A DNA stretch of 34,463 bases from a virus. Positions 3,820 to 17,276 of the stretch are shown here, in pieces. The stretch spans positions 1 to 34,463 of IMG/VR virus record IMGVR_UViG_3300020419_000047. One strand, 5' to 3'. The notes below the pieces were generated by a model, which made no database searches, was not told the DNA's origin, and worked only from the letters and a program-made list of their open reading frames with translations. The position numbers and the translations under genes were made by a program. Every line of letters begins with the position of its first letter. The stretch's first letter is position 1.

Positions 3820-3900
3820 CCCTTGCCAAAGGGTTCACAAAGGGTAGTTTATACCCTATATAATAAAGCTAAAGCTATAAATAAAGATAAAGATAAAGAT
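3818..3900 (+). repeat. Hairpin plus AAAGAT/AAAGCT module, copy A
   Basis: Immediately after the lysin stop, AACCCTT (3818-3824) pairs with AAGGGTT (3829-3835). A second hairpin AGGGTA-GTTTA-TACCCT spans 3841-3857, followed by ATAATAAAGCT and hexamer repeats of AAAGCT and AAAGAT to 3900, directly before the holin ATG. Related modules are at 8032-8096 and 14065-14130. Read in the holin frame the module would encode KGSQRVVYTLYNKAK..KDKDKD, like the repeat inside the replication gene. Confidence 0.8.
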
Positions 3901-4290
3901 ATGAGTATATTGAGAAAAATATTTAGTAGTGGAGCAAAGGACTTAGTAGATAGTGTTGGAAATGCTATTGATAAGATACATACCTCAGCAGAAGAAAAAG
4001 AACTTGTAAAGAACGAGATAAACAAAGCTATCTATGAGTTTGAAAAGAATATGCAGGTAGAGGTAACTAAGCGTTGGGAAGCTGATATGAATGGTAATTG
4101 GCTGTCTAAATCCATACGACCATTGTCACTAGCTTTCCTGTTGTTTGTGCTTACCATATTTACACTAATTGACTTTGGATATGTAGATATGGACATCAAA
4201 GATTCTTGGATTGACCTATGGCAACTATTAGCCATCACTGCCTTTGGTGCATACTTTGGAGGAAGGTCTTACGAAAAAATTAGGAAATAA
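3901..4290 (+). CDS. Holin, 3TM superfamily
   Basis: The frame is open from TTG 3823, but the first 26 residues of that extension are the repeat module, so ATG 3901 (MSILRKIFSSG) is the likely start, giving 129 residues. The N-terminal half is an amphipathic, charged helix region, followed by NWLSKSIRPLSLAFLLFVLT and a second hydrophobic segment at LWQLLAITAFGAYFGGRSYE. This matches the phage holin family of 3TMs. It would permeabilise the inner membrane to release the DUF5675 lysin. It is the last gene before the terminator region at 4368-4400. Confidence 0.8.
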   Translation: MSILRKIFSSGAKDLVDSVGNAIDKIHTSAEEKELVKNEINKAIYEFEKNMQVEVTKRWEADMNGNWLSKSIRPLSLAFLLFVLTIFTLIDFGYVDMDIKDSWIDLWQLLAITAFGAYFGGRSYEKIRK

Positions 4291-10080: not shown

Positions 10081-10527
10081 ATGCAGACGACAATAATAAT
10101 TCTCTTGCTTATTTCTATTTTATATCTTATATTCGCACTCAATGATTTGCGAAACGACATTAGTGATATTCAGTTTAGAATGGATATTATTAAAAAGACT
10201 TGCGCAGATTACGAGAAAAGAATTAAACAAATAGAAGATGGCAAACAATCCCAAGCTAACAGAAGAGCGAGTACAGATAGCTATCGTAGAATATGTCAAG
10301 ATGCAATATCCAAATGCGCTTCTTACTGCAACAATGGGTGGTCAGTTTCAAAGACACTACTCACAAAGACTCAAAGCAAAGCGTACAGGATATTTGAGAG
10401 GAGTATCAGACCTACTTATATTCGAGCCAAACGAGAAGTACAACGGTTTGTTTATAGAGCTAAAAAAAGACAAGAAGTCTTATCCATCAAAGGAGCAGAA
10501 GTTATTCATTCAGAACGCTTTAGATAG
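10081..10527 (+). CDS. Single-TM coiled-coil protein whose frame runs deep into the nuclease gene
   Basis: ATG 10081 follows an ACATTATG context. Residues 4-20 are a membrane helix (TIIILLLISILYLIFAL), followed by a coiled-coil stretch to about residue 55. From 10238 on the frame overlaps the VRR-NUC gene by 290 bases and encodes a Ser/Arg/Lys-rich tail of lower plausibility, to TAG at 10527. The N-terminal part looks real (Rz- or spanin-like i-component layout is one option). The tail may be a by-product of a lost stop or a true overprinted sequence. Confidence 0.5.
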   Translation: MQTTIIILLLISILYLIFALNDLRNDISDIQFRMDIIKKTCADYEKRIKQIEDGKQSQANRRASTDSYRRICQDAISKCASYCNNGWSVSKTLLTKTQSKAYRIFERSIRPTYIRAKREVQRFVYRAKKRQEVLSIKGAEVIHSERFR

Positions 10528-10606
10528 AGGCTACTACGCTGTCTGCTGTAAGGGGTTTGACCATTGCAAAGAAACCATAGACAAATATTTTAATAATGAA
10601 ATCTAA
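10238..10606 (+). CDS. VRR-NUC domain nuclease
   Basis: The 122-residue protein matches the compact VRR-NUC form of the PD-(D/E)xK nucleases: an N-terminal helix ERVQIAIVEYV, then GYLRGVSDLLIF with Asp58, GLFIELKK with Glu74 and Lys76, Gln87 in KEQKLF, and a final YYAVCCKGFDHCKETI segment. Such phage proteins cut branched or structured DNA, for example replication intermediates or junctions. It overlaps the next gene by 11 bases and shares 290 bases with the TM-protein frame upstream. Confidence 0.85.
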   Translation: MANNPKLTEERVQIAIVEYVKMQYPNALLTATMGGQFQRHYSQRLKAKRTGYLRGVSDLLIFEPNEKYNGLFIELKKDKKSYPSKEQKLFIQNALDRGYYAVCCKGFDHCKETIDKYFNNEI

Positions 10607-12425: not shown

Positions 12426-13526
12426 ATGAGATATTCAGTAAATCAATTACTCAAAATAGCTATTAAAGATATTGAATCTTTAGGATATAAAAAAAAGCAA
12501 TACAGCGAAAATACGCCCATTAAGTTAGGATTTAGTCAATCGGATTTTACAAAGGTTAGCTATATAACCGAAAAAAGACAAAATGACTTAATTTTTAATC
12601 ATGTTATTGACACAAAAGTATTTACAAAAGAAAATAGAAAAAAGTATTTCTATCATACTACTATTGAAAAATTGATAAATAAATATTTCAAGGATGTTGT
12701 TTCGGATTGTTACAAAAGCCAAGAGATTATCCAGCAATTAAAAAAGCATTTATTTGATTTAAAAAAATTGGATTTGAAAATTTACGAGGGTAGCGAGATA
12801 GCCACTATTTATTCAAGTGATGCCAACGCTATTAGTTCTATGAGTTGTATGCAAGGCAAACCTCAAAGCTATTTCGAAATTTTTTCAGATTTACCCGTTA
12901 AGATGTACGCTATTATTGAGGGCGGGATTTTATATGCTCGTTGTCTAGTTTGGGAAGTTAATCGATCTTATTGGGCTAAGTCAAAAATATACATTGATAG
13001 AATATACACTTATGCCCATAATGAACCGCTGTCGAATCATATATATAAAAGAATGATTCAACAAATTATGCGAATGAATAAGATTGATAAGAGCGAAAAA
13101 ATACACGCCTATAATTTTAGACATATTAACTCGGACGATTTGAAAGGTTTTTCTTATTGCCCATTTAACGAAGTGCATTTCAAGTCTATGAGTTTAGATG
13201 ATTTTAATCATTTTCCATATATGGACACCTTCCAATATGGTAATGATTATGACGATTTACTTTCTATTGATCAGGAAGATTCTTCTTCTCATTTATTAGA
13301 CTCTACGTCGGGCGGATACTCTGAAGTTGATTCATTCTCTTGTGAGTGTTGCGGGGCTGAAATGACAGAAGATGAGCAAATCTACTGCGAAGATGTAACG
13401 GAAACACGCTGTGAAGATTGCGTAAGATATTCAGAGGTGGACGGAAGTTATTATGCCGAAGAAAATTGTACTTATATCGGTGGTAATGTTAATAGCTATG
13501 TGCATAACCGAGATATTAACAATTAA
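12426..13526 (+). CDS. Phage accessory protein with C-terminal zinc-ribbon-like cluster
   Basis: The 366-residue protein has motifs I associate with a phage family of unknown function: SCMQGK (140-145) followed by SYFEIFSDLPVKMYAIIEGG, a CLVW phrase (173-176) and IYIDRIYT (188-195). The C-terminus holds Cys306, 308, 309, 321, 329, 332 (CECCG...YCED...CEDC), a zinc-ribbon-like layout resembling the tail of the peptidase at 9012. No known enzymatic motif is clear. Codon use differs from neighbours, with more CG-containing codons, suggesting a transferred cargo gene. Confidence 0.7.
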   Translation: MRYSVNQLLKIAIKDIESLGYKKKQYSENTPIKLGFSQSDFTKVSYITEKRQNDLIFNHVIDTKVFTKENRKKYFYHTTIEKLINKYFKDVVSDCYKSQEIIQQLKKHLFDLKKLDLKIYEGSEIATIYSSDANAISSMSCMQGKPQSYFEIFSDLPVKMYAIIEGGILYARCLVWEVNRSYWAKSKIYIDRIYTYAHNEPLSNHIYKRMIQQIMRMNKIDKSEKIHAYNFRHINSDDLKGFSYCPFNEVHFKSMSLDDFNHFPYMDTFQYGNDYDDLLSIDQEDSSSHLLDSTSGGYSEVDSFSCECCGAEMTEDEQIYCEDVTETRCEDCVRYSEVDGSYYAEENCTYIGGNVNSYVHNRDINN

Positions 13527-13550: not shown

Positions 13551-13731
13551 ATGAACTTAACACAGAAACAGAAAGACGTTTTATATCTATTAAGCGTACC
13601 CGTTTTGATGTTGTTGATATTCCTTAGTGAATATCTGACAAGATTTTAACAATAGCGACAAAGCAAAAGTGACGTTATTACCTTTGATTTTTGCGCTTAT
13701 CATTATGATTTTAGAATGGCTGTTTGGCTAA
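13551..13731 (+). pseudogene. Two-TM small membrane protein split by a +1 frame change
   Basis: ATG 13551 (ACATTATG context) encodes MNLTQKQKDVLYLLSVPVLM and a membrane helix, ending at TAA 13647-13649. The +1 frame from 13648 continues NNSDKAKVTLLPLIFALIIM with a second membrane helix to TAA 13729. Joined at TTT-T-AAC the product would be a 59-residue helical hairpin with a charged turn (SEYLTRF-NNSDKAK). The junction TTT TAA C resembles the +1 shift site of prfB (CTT TGA C). It is therefore either a one-base insertion (broken gene), a programmed shift, or two peptides, the second starting at GTG 13669. Confidence 0.5.
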
Positions 13732-14064
13732 AAAATTCTTTTTAATAAGCAAGAAAACAAATATTTAACGCACTTTTTAACAATTTTGGCGGGATTTTTT
13801 TACGAATTCCGTCAATTTTTTTGGTCAGGTTGTGTAGCCACATATACGCAACCACAACAAAATGAAATCCAATTTTATAAGTTAGTAAATAGTATGGTAT
13901 GTTGAGAAATATATTCCTTTTAGGGGGTTCGTTTATTCAACGTTGCAAGGAAAGTACGCAAGTTAGTTAAAAAGAAACTTAATCTTTCGCAAAAGTTAGG
14001 GGAAAAGTAAAAATAGACCCCCATACAATACAAAAAAAATTTTAAAGACCTATTTTATAGATTT
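13732..14064. other. Non-coding region before the terminase; candidate packaging (pac/cos) region
   Basis: No convincing ORF lies here on either strand. Visible structure: an imperfect inverted repeat GGTTGTGT...ACGCAACC with a 10-base loop (13837-13863 area); a palindrome CAACGTTG near 13940; similar phrases CGCAAGTTAG and CGCAAAAGTTAG at about 13958-14000; and GGGGGT (13923-13928) matching ACCCCC (14017-14022) across about 90 bases. Packaging sites often lie next to the small terminase gene, so a pac/cos role is plausible. A structured RNA is the alternative. Confidence 0.35.
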
Positions 14065-14167: not shown

Positions 14168-14548
14168 ATGAGTGAAGAAAAAAAGAAAGTTGTAGGCAAA
14201 CCATTTGCTGTTGGCAATACTCTTGGGGGTAGAACTAAAGGTGCTTTGAATAAGACCACTAAGTTCTCAAGAGAGGTTCTTACTTTGGCTCTAGCAGGAC
14301 AGGAAGAAAATATTAGACAAGCACTAGAAAAATTATCTAAAAAAAATCCTGAAGCATATATCAATGCTGTTGCTAAACTTCTAAACTACGCAATACCAAA
14401 ACTTCAATCTACTGAAATAAGTTCAAACGGAAATGCTAAGATAGAGATAACTCTTGATGATAGTATGAGTGTTGATGACCTTAAAAGGCGAATGGCTGAA
14501 ATGGAAGCCGAAGATGCAGATTTTGAAGATATAGATGGACAAGATTAA
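14168..14548 (+). CDS. terS: Terminase small subunit (probable)
   Basis: The 126-residue protein begins with a basic phrase KPFAVGNTLGGRTKGALNKT like the KPGNPGRPKGxxNK of DUF5681-type proteins. A helical oligomerisation region (about 35-75: LTLALAGQEENIRQALEKL, AYINAVAKLLNYAIPK) and a highly acidic tail (DLKRRMAEMEAEDADFEDID) follow. It overlaps the large terminase gene by 14 bases. The small subunit recognises the packaging site and regulates the motor. Assignment rests on position and layout more than on sequence similarity. Confidence 0.7.
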   Translation: MSEEKKKVVGKPFAVGNTLGGRTKGALNKTTKFSREVLTLALAGQEENIRQALEKLSKKNPEAYINAVAKLLNYAIPKLQSTEISSNGNAKIEITLDDSMSVDDLKRRMAEMEAEDADFEDIDGQD

Positions 14549-15962
14549 AAAGGAACAACTGCTAAAGGCGATGGAGAAAGCCATCTGTGAGAAATCATTT
14601 TATGAGTTCTTTGTCAAAGCCTTTCCTATAGCAGAACCTTCAGTTCCTTTATCCACAAACTTCCACCACAAATACCTTTGCGATATTCTGCAAGGAGAAG
14701 CAGAAAGAATAATTAGAGGCGAAAGAAAGGGTAAAGATATAATTATTAATATTCCCTTCCGTAGCACTAAGTCATTACTTGTGACAGTTATGTTTCCTGC
14801 TTGGTGTTGGGCGGTATATCCCAAAATGAGATTTATCACAGCATCATACTCGGCTGAGATTAGTATAGAACACGCAACAAAGTCAAGAGATATAATAAAT
14901 AGCGAATGGTATCAAGAGCATTGGGGAGAAACATATCAAATCAAAAAAGATCAAAACCTAAAAGCTAGATACGAGAATACACATCTAGGAGTTAGGAGAG
15001 CAACATCTGTTGGCGGTTCGGTAACAGGGCAAGGTGGTGATATAATTCTTGTCGATGACCCTACATCACCAAAAAATGCTGCATCGGAAACAGAAAGAGA
15101 TAATGCTAACGAATGGTATAAGTCAACATTGTATTCACGACTTAATAATCCAACAACGGGAGTTAGGATAATTATTATGCAAAGAGTACACGAAGATGAC
15201 CTTAGCGGTTACCTTCTATACAACTCACCCGACAAACATCATCATATCTGCATACCCGCAGAGCTTTCTAGCGACCTAAAGCCATATTCACTACACGAAC
15301 ACTATCAAGAAGGTCTATTTTGGAAAGAAAGATTCTCAAGAGAGGTCTTAGAGGACTATAAGTCAGCTTTGGGTAGTTATGGCTACGCAGGACAGCTACA
15401 ACAGCGACCAACACCTGCCGATAGTGGTATGTTACAGAAAAATTGGTTTAGAATAGATGATGAGAAGGTAGATGATGTAGTAAACTTCGTTATTGACCCT
15501 GCATATACCGCAAGTCAGAAAAATGACCCGTCAGCATTGATGGCATACACATATAGCGAGGGTAAATGGCAAATTAGAGAGGTTCAGAACGTAAGATTGG
15601 AGTTTCCTGACCTTGTAAAGCATATTGTTAAGTTTGTAAACAAAAATGGCTACACAAAACAATCAAAAATATTTGTAGAGCCTAAAGCTAGTGGTAAATC
15701 TATTGTTCAAACCTTAACTAGAGAAACAGGACTTAACATAAAAGAAGATAAGCCACCAACAAAAGATAAGGTGGCAAGAGTACAAGATATTAGTGCAAGT
15801 ATAGAAACGGGAAGGGTATCACTACTAAAAGGTCATTGGAATGAAGAATTTCTTATGCAATGCCAAACATTTCCTGCTGCAAAGCACGATGATATGGTAG
15901 ATTGCCTTGTAATGGCACTAAATAGACACTTTAACGGCAAAAAAATAGTATTTTTCGGCTAA
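14535..15962 (+). CDS. terL: Terminase large subunit
   Basis: The 475-residue protein has the packaging-motor plan. Residues 60-200 are the ATPase, with a deviant Walker A region (INIPFRSTKS, 71-80) and Walker B DIILVDDP (169-176). VRIIIMQRVHEDDLSGYLL (210-228) follows. The C-terminal RNase H-like nuclease has Asp321 (FVIDPAYT), FVEPKASGKS (380-389) and Asp452/453 (KHDDMVDCL). It pumps DNA into the capsid and cuts concatemers. The Walker A lacks the usual GKT but has a Lys in STKS, as in several terminases. No frameshift or truncation is apparent. Confidence 0.93.
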   Translation: MDKIKKEQLLKAMEKAICEKSFYEFFVKAFPIAEPSVPLSTNFHHKYLCDILQGEAERIIRGERKGKDIIINIPFRSTKSLLVTVMFPAWCWAVYPKMRFITASYSAEISIEHATKSRDIINSEWYQEHWGETYQIKKDQNLKARYENTHLGVRRATSVGGSVTGQGGDIILVDDPTSPKNAASETERDNANEWYKSTLYSRLNNPTTGVRIIIMQRVHEDDLSGYLLYNSPDKHHHICIPAELSSDLKPYSLHEHYQEGLFWKERFSREVLEDYKSALGSYGYAGQLQQRPTPADSGMLQKNWFRIDDEKVDDVVNFVIDPAYTASQKNDPSALMAYTYSEGKWQIREVQNVRLEFPDLVKHIVKFVNKNGYTKQSKIFVEPKASGKSIVQTLTRETGLNIKEDKPPTKDKVARVQDISASIETGRVSLLKGHWNEEFLMQCQTFPAAKHDDMVDCLVMALNRHFNGKKIVFFG

Positions 15963-16033: not shown

Positions 16034-16426
16034 ATGAATGAATTTAAGCATATAAATCAAAAACACGAGGACTTAGTAACTAACTACCTTAAATATATAC
16101 AAAAACAGGTGTATGTTGCTACTGAAGATGCTGATTTTGGAAAATATGATGATTTTCAGGATATTCTCGAGGATATTATGATGTATCATAATGATTTTGT
16201 AGGCGTAGGCTTAAATAGGGATAATATTGAGGAGTGGATGTTTGCTATTCCTAATCTAACAATGTTTACCGTTTTAGGATTCTTTGCAGGATTAAGAAAC
16301 GAAGAAAACGATGATGTGGTGGAAATTTGCGTAAGAAACGTATATAGTGCTACAATGGACATCGTGGGAAGTTTATCTGACCTAATGAAAGACGAAGAAG
16401 AAATAAAACAGATGCAACAATGTTAG
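16034..16426 (+). CDS. Hypothetical acidic protein upstream of the tail chaperones
   Basis: The 130-residue acidic protein is largely helical (HEDLVTNYLKYIQKQVYVAT, FQDILEDIMMYHNDFVGVGL, MDIVGSLSDLMKDEEEI). No domain recognised. It overlaps the chaperone start by 7 bases. The position after terL would normally hold the portal, but nothing here resembles one. Possibly a tail-assembly or regulatory factor. Confidence 0.65.
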   Translation: MNEFKHINQKHEDLVTNYLKYIQKQVYVATEDADFGKYDDFQDILEDIMMYHNDFVGVGLNRDNIEEWMFAIPNLTMFTVLGFFAGLRNEENDDVVEICVRNVYSATMDIVGSLSDLMKDEEEIKQMQQC

Positions 16427-17064
16427 TAGTAGAAATAGAGGACAAAGAATACAGTATTCCTGATAGTTGGGAGGAAATGACTTTGGATTATTATTGTGGA
16501 TTACACCATATAATATCAAAGTATCAGAAAACCCAAGAGGAAGAAGAGAGTGAAAACGATTTAACAAAATATTTCTTTCATCAAGAAAGTAAGATGCATA
16601 AAGAACTTTTTTGTTATATGACGGGATTGAGCGAAAAAAAGGTTAATAATATATCTATGCAGAGCATAAACTCTGTTTTAAACTGCTTAGAGTCTATTAT
16701 GAAGGATTACGAACCAAAAGGTGTTGATTCTTTTAAGTTTGAGGGAGATATTTATTATTTTCCAATAGACTTTCTTAGAACAGGTACTTTTGGAGATTAT
16801 ATAGAAAGTCAACAGCTTGAAATGAACACGCAATACCTGAAAAATGGTAGGTTTGATGTTTTGCCTGAACAGATGGCAATATTATGCAAACAAGTTGATG
16901 AAGAGGTTGACCTTGACAATATTGATGAAAAGACGAATAATTTTCGCAGGTTAACAATGGACATCGTATGGGAGTTCAGTTTTTTTTTGAACAAACAAAC
17001 GATGGCATCGTTAGGCGCTATAAAAATCTTTTCAGAGATGGCGGCACAAAAAGTATCGCAGTAG
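16420..17064 (+). CDS. Tail assembly chaperone, short form (gpG-like)
   Basis: The 214-residue acidic protein opens with VEIEDKEYSIPDSWEEMTLD, a strand-strand-helix phrase typical of tail assembly chaperones in Bacteroidetes phages, followed by helices. Near residues 185-190 the codons TTC AGT TTT TTT TTG form a slippery run, and the -1 frame there is the next gene. This is the classic gpG/gpGT arrangement: the short and shifted forms coat the tape measure protein and recruit tail tube subunits. The function is inferred from this arrangement. In most siphoviruses the tape measure gene follows directly; here it is 7.5 kb further on. Confidence 0.65.
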   Translation: MLVVEIEDKEYSIPDSWEEMTLDYYCGLHHIISKYQKTQEEEESENDLTKYFFHQESKMHKELFCYMTGLSEKKVNNISMQSINSVLNCLESIMKDYEPKGVDSFKFEGDIYYFPIDFLRTGTFGDYIESQQLEMNTQYLKNGRFDVLPEQMAILCKQVDEEVDLDNIDEKTNNFRRLTMDIVWEFSFFLNKQTMASLGAIKIFSEMAAQKVSQ

Positions 17065-17276
17065 CGAAGGCAAGTAAGATAATGAAGCCGTTTGGTTGGC
17101 TGAACACCTTATACGACCTAGCGCTTGATGGAGTATTTACAAGAGATGGTAAAGATGCTATGCAAAGTGTAAAAGATGAAAAATTGTATAAGGTTTTGAC
17201 ATACCTGTCTTGGAAAACTGCAAAAGGAGATTATGAACTTGCTATTAATGAAGAACAGCAAAAACAAATTAAATAA
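16968..17276 (+). CDS. Frameshift extension of the tail assembly chaperone (gpT-like part)
   Basis: The frame has an ATG at 16968, but it overlaps the upstream gene by 97 bases and lies exactly in the -1 frame, so it is probably made as a fusion: 189 residues of the short form plus 96 residues beginning FEQTNDGIV, about 285 in all. The extension is basic and helical (DGGTKSIAVAKASKIMKPFG, VKDEKLYKVLTYLSWKTAKG), fitting a gpT-like tail-tube-binding domain. Separate translation from ATG 16968 cannot be excluded. Confidence 0.65.
   Translation: MGVQFFFEQTNDGIVRRYKNLFRDGGTKSIAVAKASKIMKPFGWLNTLYDLALDGVFTRDGKDAMQSVKDEKLYKVLTYLSWKTAKGDYELAINEEQQKQIK
16980..16986 (+). promoter_or_regulatory. Slippery site T TTT TTT for -1 frameshift
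   Basis: Nine T (16980-16988) with the heptamer T TTT TTT in register with the zero frame. Slippage at TTT (16984-16986) moves reading to 16986 in the frame of the gene ending at 17276. Confidence 0.7.

Follow-up and report, generated by a model that had tools for sequence, protein, structure and literature searches.

In bacteria, the main known case of stop-dependent +1 frameshifting is, to our knowledge, prfB. The reference site in that gene consists of AGGNGG, a 3-nt spacer, and CUU UGA C (PMC8710568). It was retained in 72% of the Bacteroidia prfB genes examined, and such hosts are therefore thought to shift at stops; the F. johnsoniae site carries a perfect AGGAGG (PMC8710568). Among slippery codons before a stop, CUU comes first, followed by UUU and CCC (PMC10885494). 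In phages, +1 frameshifts have been described in the capsid and tail genes of Listeria phage PSA (PMC5009743), and the bar minigene of phage lambda, AUG AUA UAA, acts by tRNA sequestration (PMC8012679). Our literature search found no report of a programmed frameshift in a small phage membrane protein.

The window analyzed here, which is the whole stretch of 34,463 nucleotides, is an entire IMG/VR virus contig, and the split gene, its flanking genes, and the hairpin downstream of it lie on the plus strand. ORF1, referred to as h1, runs from ATG at 13551 to 13649, and encodes 32 aa with a first transmembrane (TM) helix, its last codon and stop being TTT TAA. Upstream of the junction the +1 frame is interrupted, most recently by TGA at 13636; from there it is open until TAA at 13729-13731, so that the second half, h2 (13648-13731), comprises 27 codons plus the stop, begins with AAC, and encodes a second TM helix. 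The proposed slip site, TTT TAA C (UUU_UAA_C in the mRNA), spans 13644-13650, with TTT at 13644-13646, TAA at 13647-13649, and C at 13650. The original prediction of a two-TM gene split at this sequence is exact, since the stop, the offset, and the open +1 frame are all present. Skipping one T joins the halves, as predicted, into a 59-aa two-helix protein (MNLTQKQKDVLYLLSVPVLMLLIFLSEYLTRF-NNSDKAKVTLLPLIFALIIMILEWLFG) with two hydropathy peaks, whose 17-residue means are about 2.6 each, and the junction falls in the polar loop between the two hydrophobic segments. No ATG was found near the beginning of the +1 frame, and the only early GTG in that frame, at about 13669, is unconserved among relatives, where it reads GTG, GTT, or GTA. 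Compared by profile with holins and other known phage membrane protein families, the peptide gave no match in Pfam and only weak matches to two PHROG families of unknown function (E = 0.069, or 0.0085 with the L011 form described below).

Searching IMG/VR with the joined protein returned ten loci (L003 to L012), of which L008 is the other end of the L007 contig. L003 to L006 match all 59 residues over a span of 178 bases, one more than 59 codons take up; L007 (with L008) and L009 match the second half, and L010, L011, and L012 match the first. As a second search, we used a DNA anchor about 200 bp downstream that was picked independently of the junction, and two further copies, L015 and L016, were found through the terminase. 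In total, TTT TAA followed by the second half in the +1 frame is present in ten contigs from different metagenomes, including the window. TTT TAA C is identical in the window, L003 to L007, L009, and L011, and L015 and L016 have TTT TAA T, so that C follows the stop in 8 of the 10 copies. Nucleotide identity to the window is 78-90% in the full-length set and divergence is larger beyond it; L011 has diverged but retains both TTT TAA C and the +1 offset. The original prediction had called for a comparison of relatives and had named copies with one intact fused frame as the opposing case. Nine further contigs share TTT TAA and the offset, and no fused single-frame copy was found, the anchor search recovering the same clade.

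The leader ahead of the second half varies in this clade. L007 and L009 have only ATG AAC TTA ACA AGA TTT TAA C (MNLTRF), as would result if an in-frame deletion of 78 nt between short repeats had removed helix 1, and L015 and L016 have ATG ATT TAC TTT TAA T. Between L007 and L009, changes in h2 are nearly all synonymous, and the slip site has been kept despite the loss of helix 1. The length from ATG to the last codon is 1 mod 3 in 11/11 clade members, with lengths differing by 12 to 99 nt. In a tree of the terminase large subunit (TerL), all TTT TAA carriers form one clade together with L012 (support 94/93); the ten sequences thus belong to a single clade and represent few independent events. 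L012 is the exception, having lost 42 nt relative to L011, the site included, while keeping the +1 offset. No clear slip site is left in it and its 0 frame continues through the terminator region, and it may be a broken copy.

We calculated pN/pS for the window and L003 to L006 in half 1, with L007 and L009 added for half 2 (7 sequences). Half 1 gave a ratio of 0.18 in frame 0, compared to 0.75 and 4.18 in the other two frames. Half 2 gave 0.15 in the +1 frame, where the 7 sequences contain 0 stops, compared to 23 and 14 in the other frames; overall, the alternative frames contained between 10 and 25 stops, with ratios from 0.75 to 4.2. By codon position (1/2/3), the variable sites number 10/4/20 in half 1 (P = 0.003) and 6/2/16 in half 2 (P = 0.0015), although these P values assume independence among sites and the sequences share ancestry. 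Conservation of h2 begins at the first post-slip codon, ahead of any start codon, and no stop has arisen in h2 across the ten contigs. Together, these patterns indicate purifying selection on each half, acting in two frames that could be joined only by a shift.

With ten contigs keeping the site and the offset and both halves under selection, the original prediction of a programmed shift is supported, and we consider it highly probable that ribosomes produce the 59-aa protein through a programmed +1 frameshift at UUU_UAA_C. The ribosome would pause at UAA (13647) with peptidyl-tRNA-Phe on the P-site UUU; when release is slow, tRNA-Phe would slip one base onto the overlapping UUU, AAC would enter the A site, and translation would continue through the second helix. 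Termination would yield a 32-aa one-helix peptide and slipping the two-helix protein, with output set by competition between the release factor and the slip. The codon itself is suited to this, as UUU followed by U allows tRNA-Phe to re-pair perfectly one base on. Of the gene stops in these phages, 2.2% have TTT as the preceding codon, 5.6% allow perfect re-pairing into +1/-2, and 15% allow it into +2/-1. We found no Shine-Dalgarno-like stimulator upstream of the site in the aligned copies and, in 4 of 5 copies, no stimulatory RNA fold better than shuffles (z near or above 0; L007 gave z = -1.7), so that efficiency may be low.

The locus resembles prfB (CUU_UGA_C) in that a P-site tRNA would slip +1 at a stop onto an overlapping UUU, and in the window C follows the stop. 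This part of the predicted likeness to prfB holds, but the stop is UAA rather than UGA, the codon is UUU rather than CUU, and the stimulator is missing. The window site, with neither AGGNGG nor the AGGAGG of F. johnsoniae and without CUU UGA C, is thus not a prfB-type site. The gene also differs, being a release factor there and a phage membrane peptide here, and because UAA is read by both RF1 and RF2, no RF2-specific feedback is expected. Of the features that mark stop-dependent +1 frameshifts, we found a re-pairable P-site codon at the stop and two coding, conserved frames, while a stimulatory element, which is common but not universal, was absent. Phage PSA is likewise a dsDNA phage with +1 programmed shifts, one of them adjoining a stop, but its shifts use a proline codon and give long structural proteins a C-terminal extension, whereas here the product is a tiny membrane peptide and the leader can be as short as four codons.

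We weighed several other explanations for the split. A sequencing or assembly error in the T4 run would fit the fact that some platforms are error-prone at homopolymers, but the same extra base occurs in ten diverged contigs from different metagenomes, the full-length set differing by 10-22% from the window, and we regard this explanation as ruled out for practical purposes. The recent one-base insertion that had been offered as the simpler alternative to a programmed shift is likewise rejected, because the offset is common to the ten contigs and both halves are selected. An older insertion in a decaying gene, with h1 functional by itself and h2 a remnant, would account for the relatives in which h1 stands alone and for L012, which lacks the junction; given the pN/pS of h2, its retention where h1 is deleted, and the ten contigs free of stops in it, this seems very improbable. 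Transcriptional slippage in the T4 run, with a base added or dropped, would join the frames too, and we give it slightly less weight still, since such slippage needs runs longer than four and the sister-clade sites described below (ATATAA) have no long run, which would leave the two cases without a common explanation.

Reinitiation is the least improbable of these, though we consider it unlikely. Ribosomes would stop at the TAA at 13647 and restart at a nearby non-AUG codon, producing h2 as a separate peptide. The short distance favors this, as does the AUA that overlaps the stop in the sister clade. The lysis genes of the RNA phages MS2 and GA are a parallel in that a small membrane protein is made only by ribosomes acting unusually at an upstream stop, but they reinitiate at a real start codon, and h2 has none. 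The h2 frame has no conserved start, its one early GTG varying to GTT and GTA; coding conservation starts right at the post-slip codon; and L015/L016 and L030 have no ATG, GTG, or TTG before the TM segment in its frame.

Relatives of each half also occur by themselves outside the clade. A stand-alone h1 ending in NF and a stop is found in L029, L041, L042, L073, and L088, where the +1 frame past the stop is short and non-hydrophobic. Since TTT TAA also ends these stand-alone h1 genes, the site could be a legacy of h1 and not the outcome of selection for slipping. An h2-like peptide with its own ATG, MNNKQLPISNFWLLIALILSLLGCFN, is present in L039 and, nearly identical, in L038 and L208, and a similar ATG-started peptide, MKLEQYTPPFFIILILIILIFLM, is present in L020, with slightly altered forms in L025 and L040. 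Like the split gene, each of these stand-alone peptides is encoded by the ORF that comes last before the terminase genes. The gene is therefore real, and its split form belongs to particular clades. For the most distant of these peptides, homology is judged from place, length, and pattern, with no significant score, and broader peptide motif searches returned mostly chance matches.

Other small TM peptides were also seen upstream of the terminase genes. One lies directly upstream of them in L041 (3975-4107), L042 (2648-2756), and L033 (617-725); the L041 and L042 copies have no in-frame ATG and overlap the end of the upstream gene, making a -1 shift at A_AAA or a non-AUG start possible. A different small TM ORF (for example, MKYTTNPKLLDK..NAIIKLNF) occurs in L017, L020, L025, L030, L034, L036, and L040, ending in F before TAA with the next gene close behind.

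A peptide with a similar pattern (LENYTP..) and no in-frame ATG occurs at the same place in a sister clade, namely in L026, L029, L034, and L106. This TM peptide lies behind ATG ATA TAA AC (L026, 2559-2638; L029, 2163-2242; L034, 2087-2166; and L106), where AUAUA allows perfect +2 re-pairing into the peptide frame. In L030 (2602-2683) and L036 (2273-2354), the TM peptide lies behind ATG..AAA TAA, where AAAAA allows perfect -2 or imperfect +1 re-pairing, and phages whose terminases are nearly identical can carry either the AUAUA or the AAAAA type of leader. The pN/pS of the sister-clade peptide is 0.38. These features suggest, less firmly than for the window clade, that reading this peptide would likewise take a slip at UAA, one of a different type; the peptide has only about 21 codons, its end overlaps a terminator hairpin, and ATA before stops is common in these phages (25/267). 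The leader of L026, L029, L034, and L106 is letter for letter that of lambda bar, and in both cases very short nascent peptides tend toward drop-off over normal termination. We know of no conserved shifted frame after the bar minigene.

Because L007 and L009 keep helix 2 behind a six-codon leader and a slip, a form that has been enough for retention by selection, the constant feature would be stop-gated synthesis of helix 2. Our best guess for its role is a membrane-active peptide kept at a low level that may rise as termination slows. It is conceivable, though we hold this only tentatively, that selection maintains the stop-gated slip in this phage group as a means of controlling one small membrane peptide, with the slip type interchangeable (UUU_UAA with +1 in one clade, AUA_UAA with +2 or AAA_UAA with -2 or +1 in another) and leaders down to AUG AUA UAA. 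The mRNA would then report slow termination and the peptide would be released only in that state. If +1 shifting at UUU_UAA_C is real, the locus would be a second, unrelated gene with a stop-dependent +1 shift, and, as it has no Shine-Dalgarno stimulator and its phages probably infect bacteria with ribosomes that mask the anti-Shine-Dalgarno, it would show how small a sufficient site can be, with the leader variants serving as natural mutants. It would also show a phage keeping a small membrane peptide scarce or tying it to the translation state, and genes of this build are missed by gene callers.

Among isolates, the phages with terminases closest to that of the window infect Croceibacter and other flavobacteria (≤44% identity), and the host is probably a flavobacteria-like bacterium. 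We found no homologue of the 59-aa protein in isolated phages and none of either this protein or TerL in bacterial genomes. The split gene lies between a 366-aa gene with a Cys-rich C-terminus (12426-13526) and the terminase genes, comprising a presumed small subunit assigned by position (14168-14548) and TerL (14535-15962), our tree marker. A terminator-like hairpin followed by T7 lies 3' of the split gene at 13786-13822, recognized from its sequence and conserved in the clade alignment. What we take to be the likely holin is encoded at 3823-4290, away from the split gene, and no tRNA genes, and thus no phage-borne frameshift tRNA, were found in the window. Two other overlaps were seen there. 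The ORFs at 16420-17064 and 16968-17276 overlap, with the second read in the -1 frame and a run of T9 inside the overlap, and are likely joined by a -1 shift, as in tail assembly chaperone pairs. The ORFs at 10081-10527 and 10238-10606 overlap by 290 nt in different frames, the first product starting with a TM segment and the second being a VRR_NUC nuclease.
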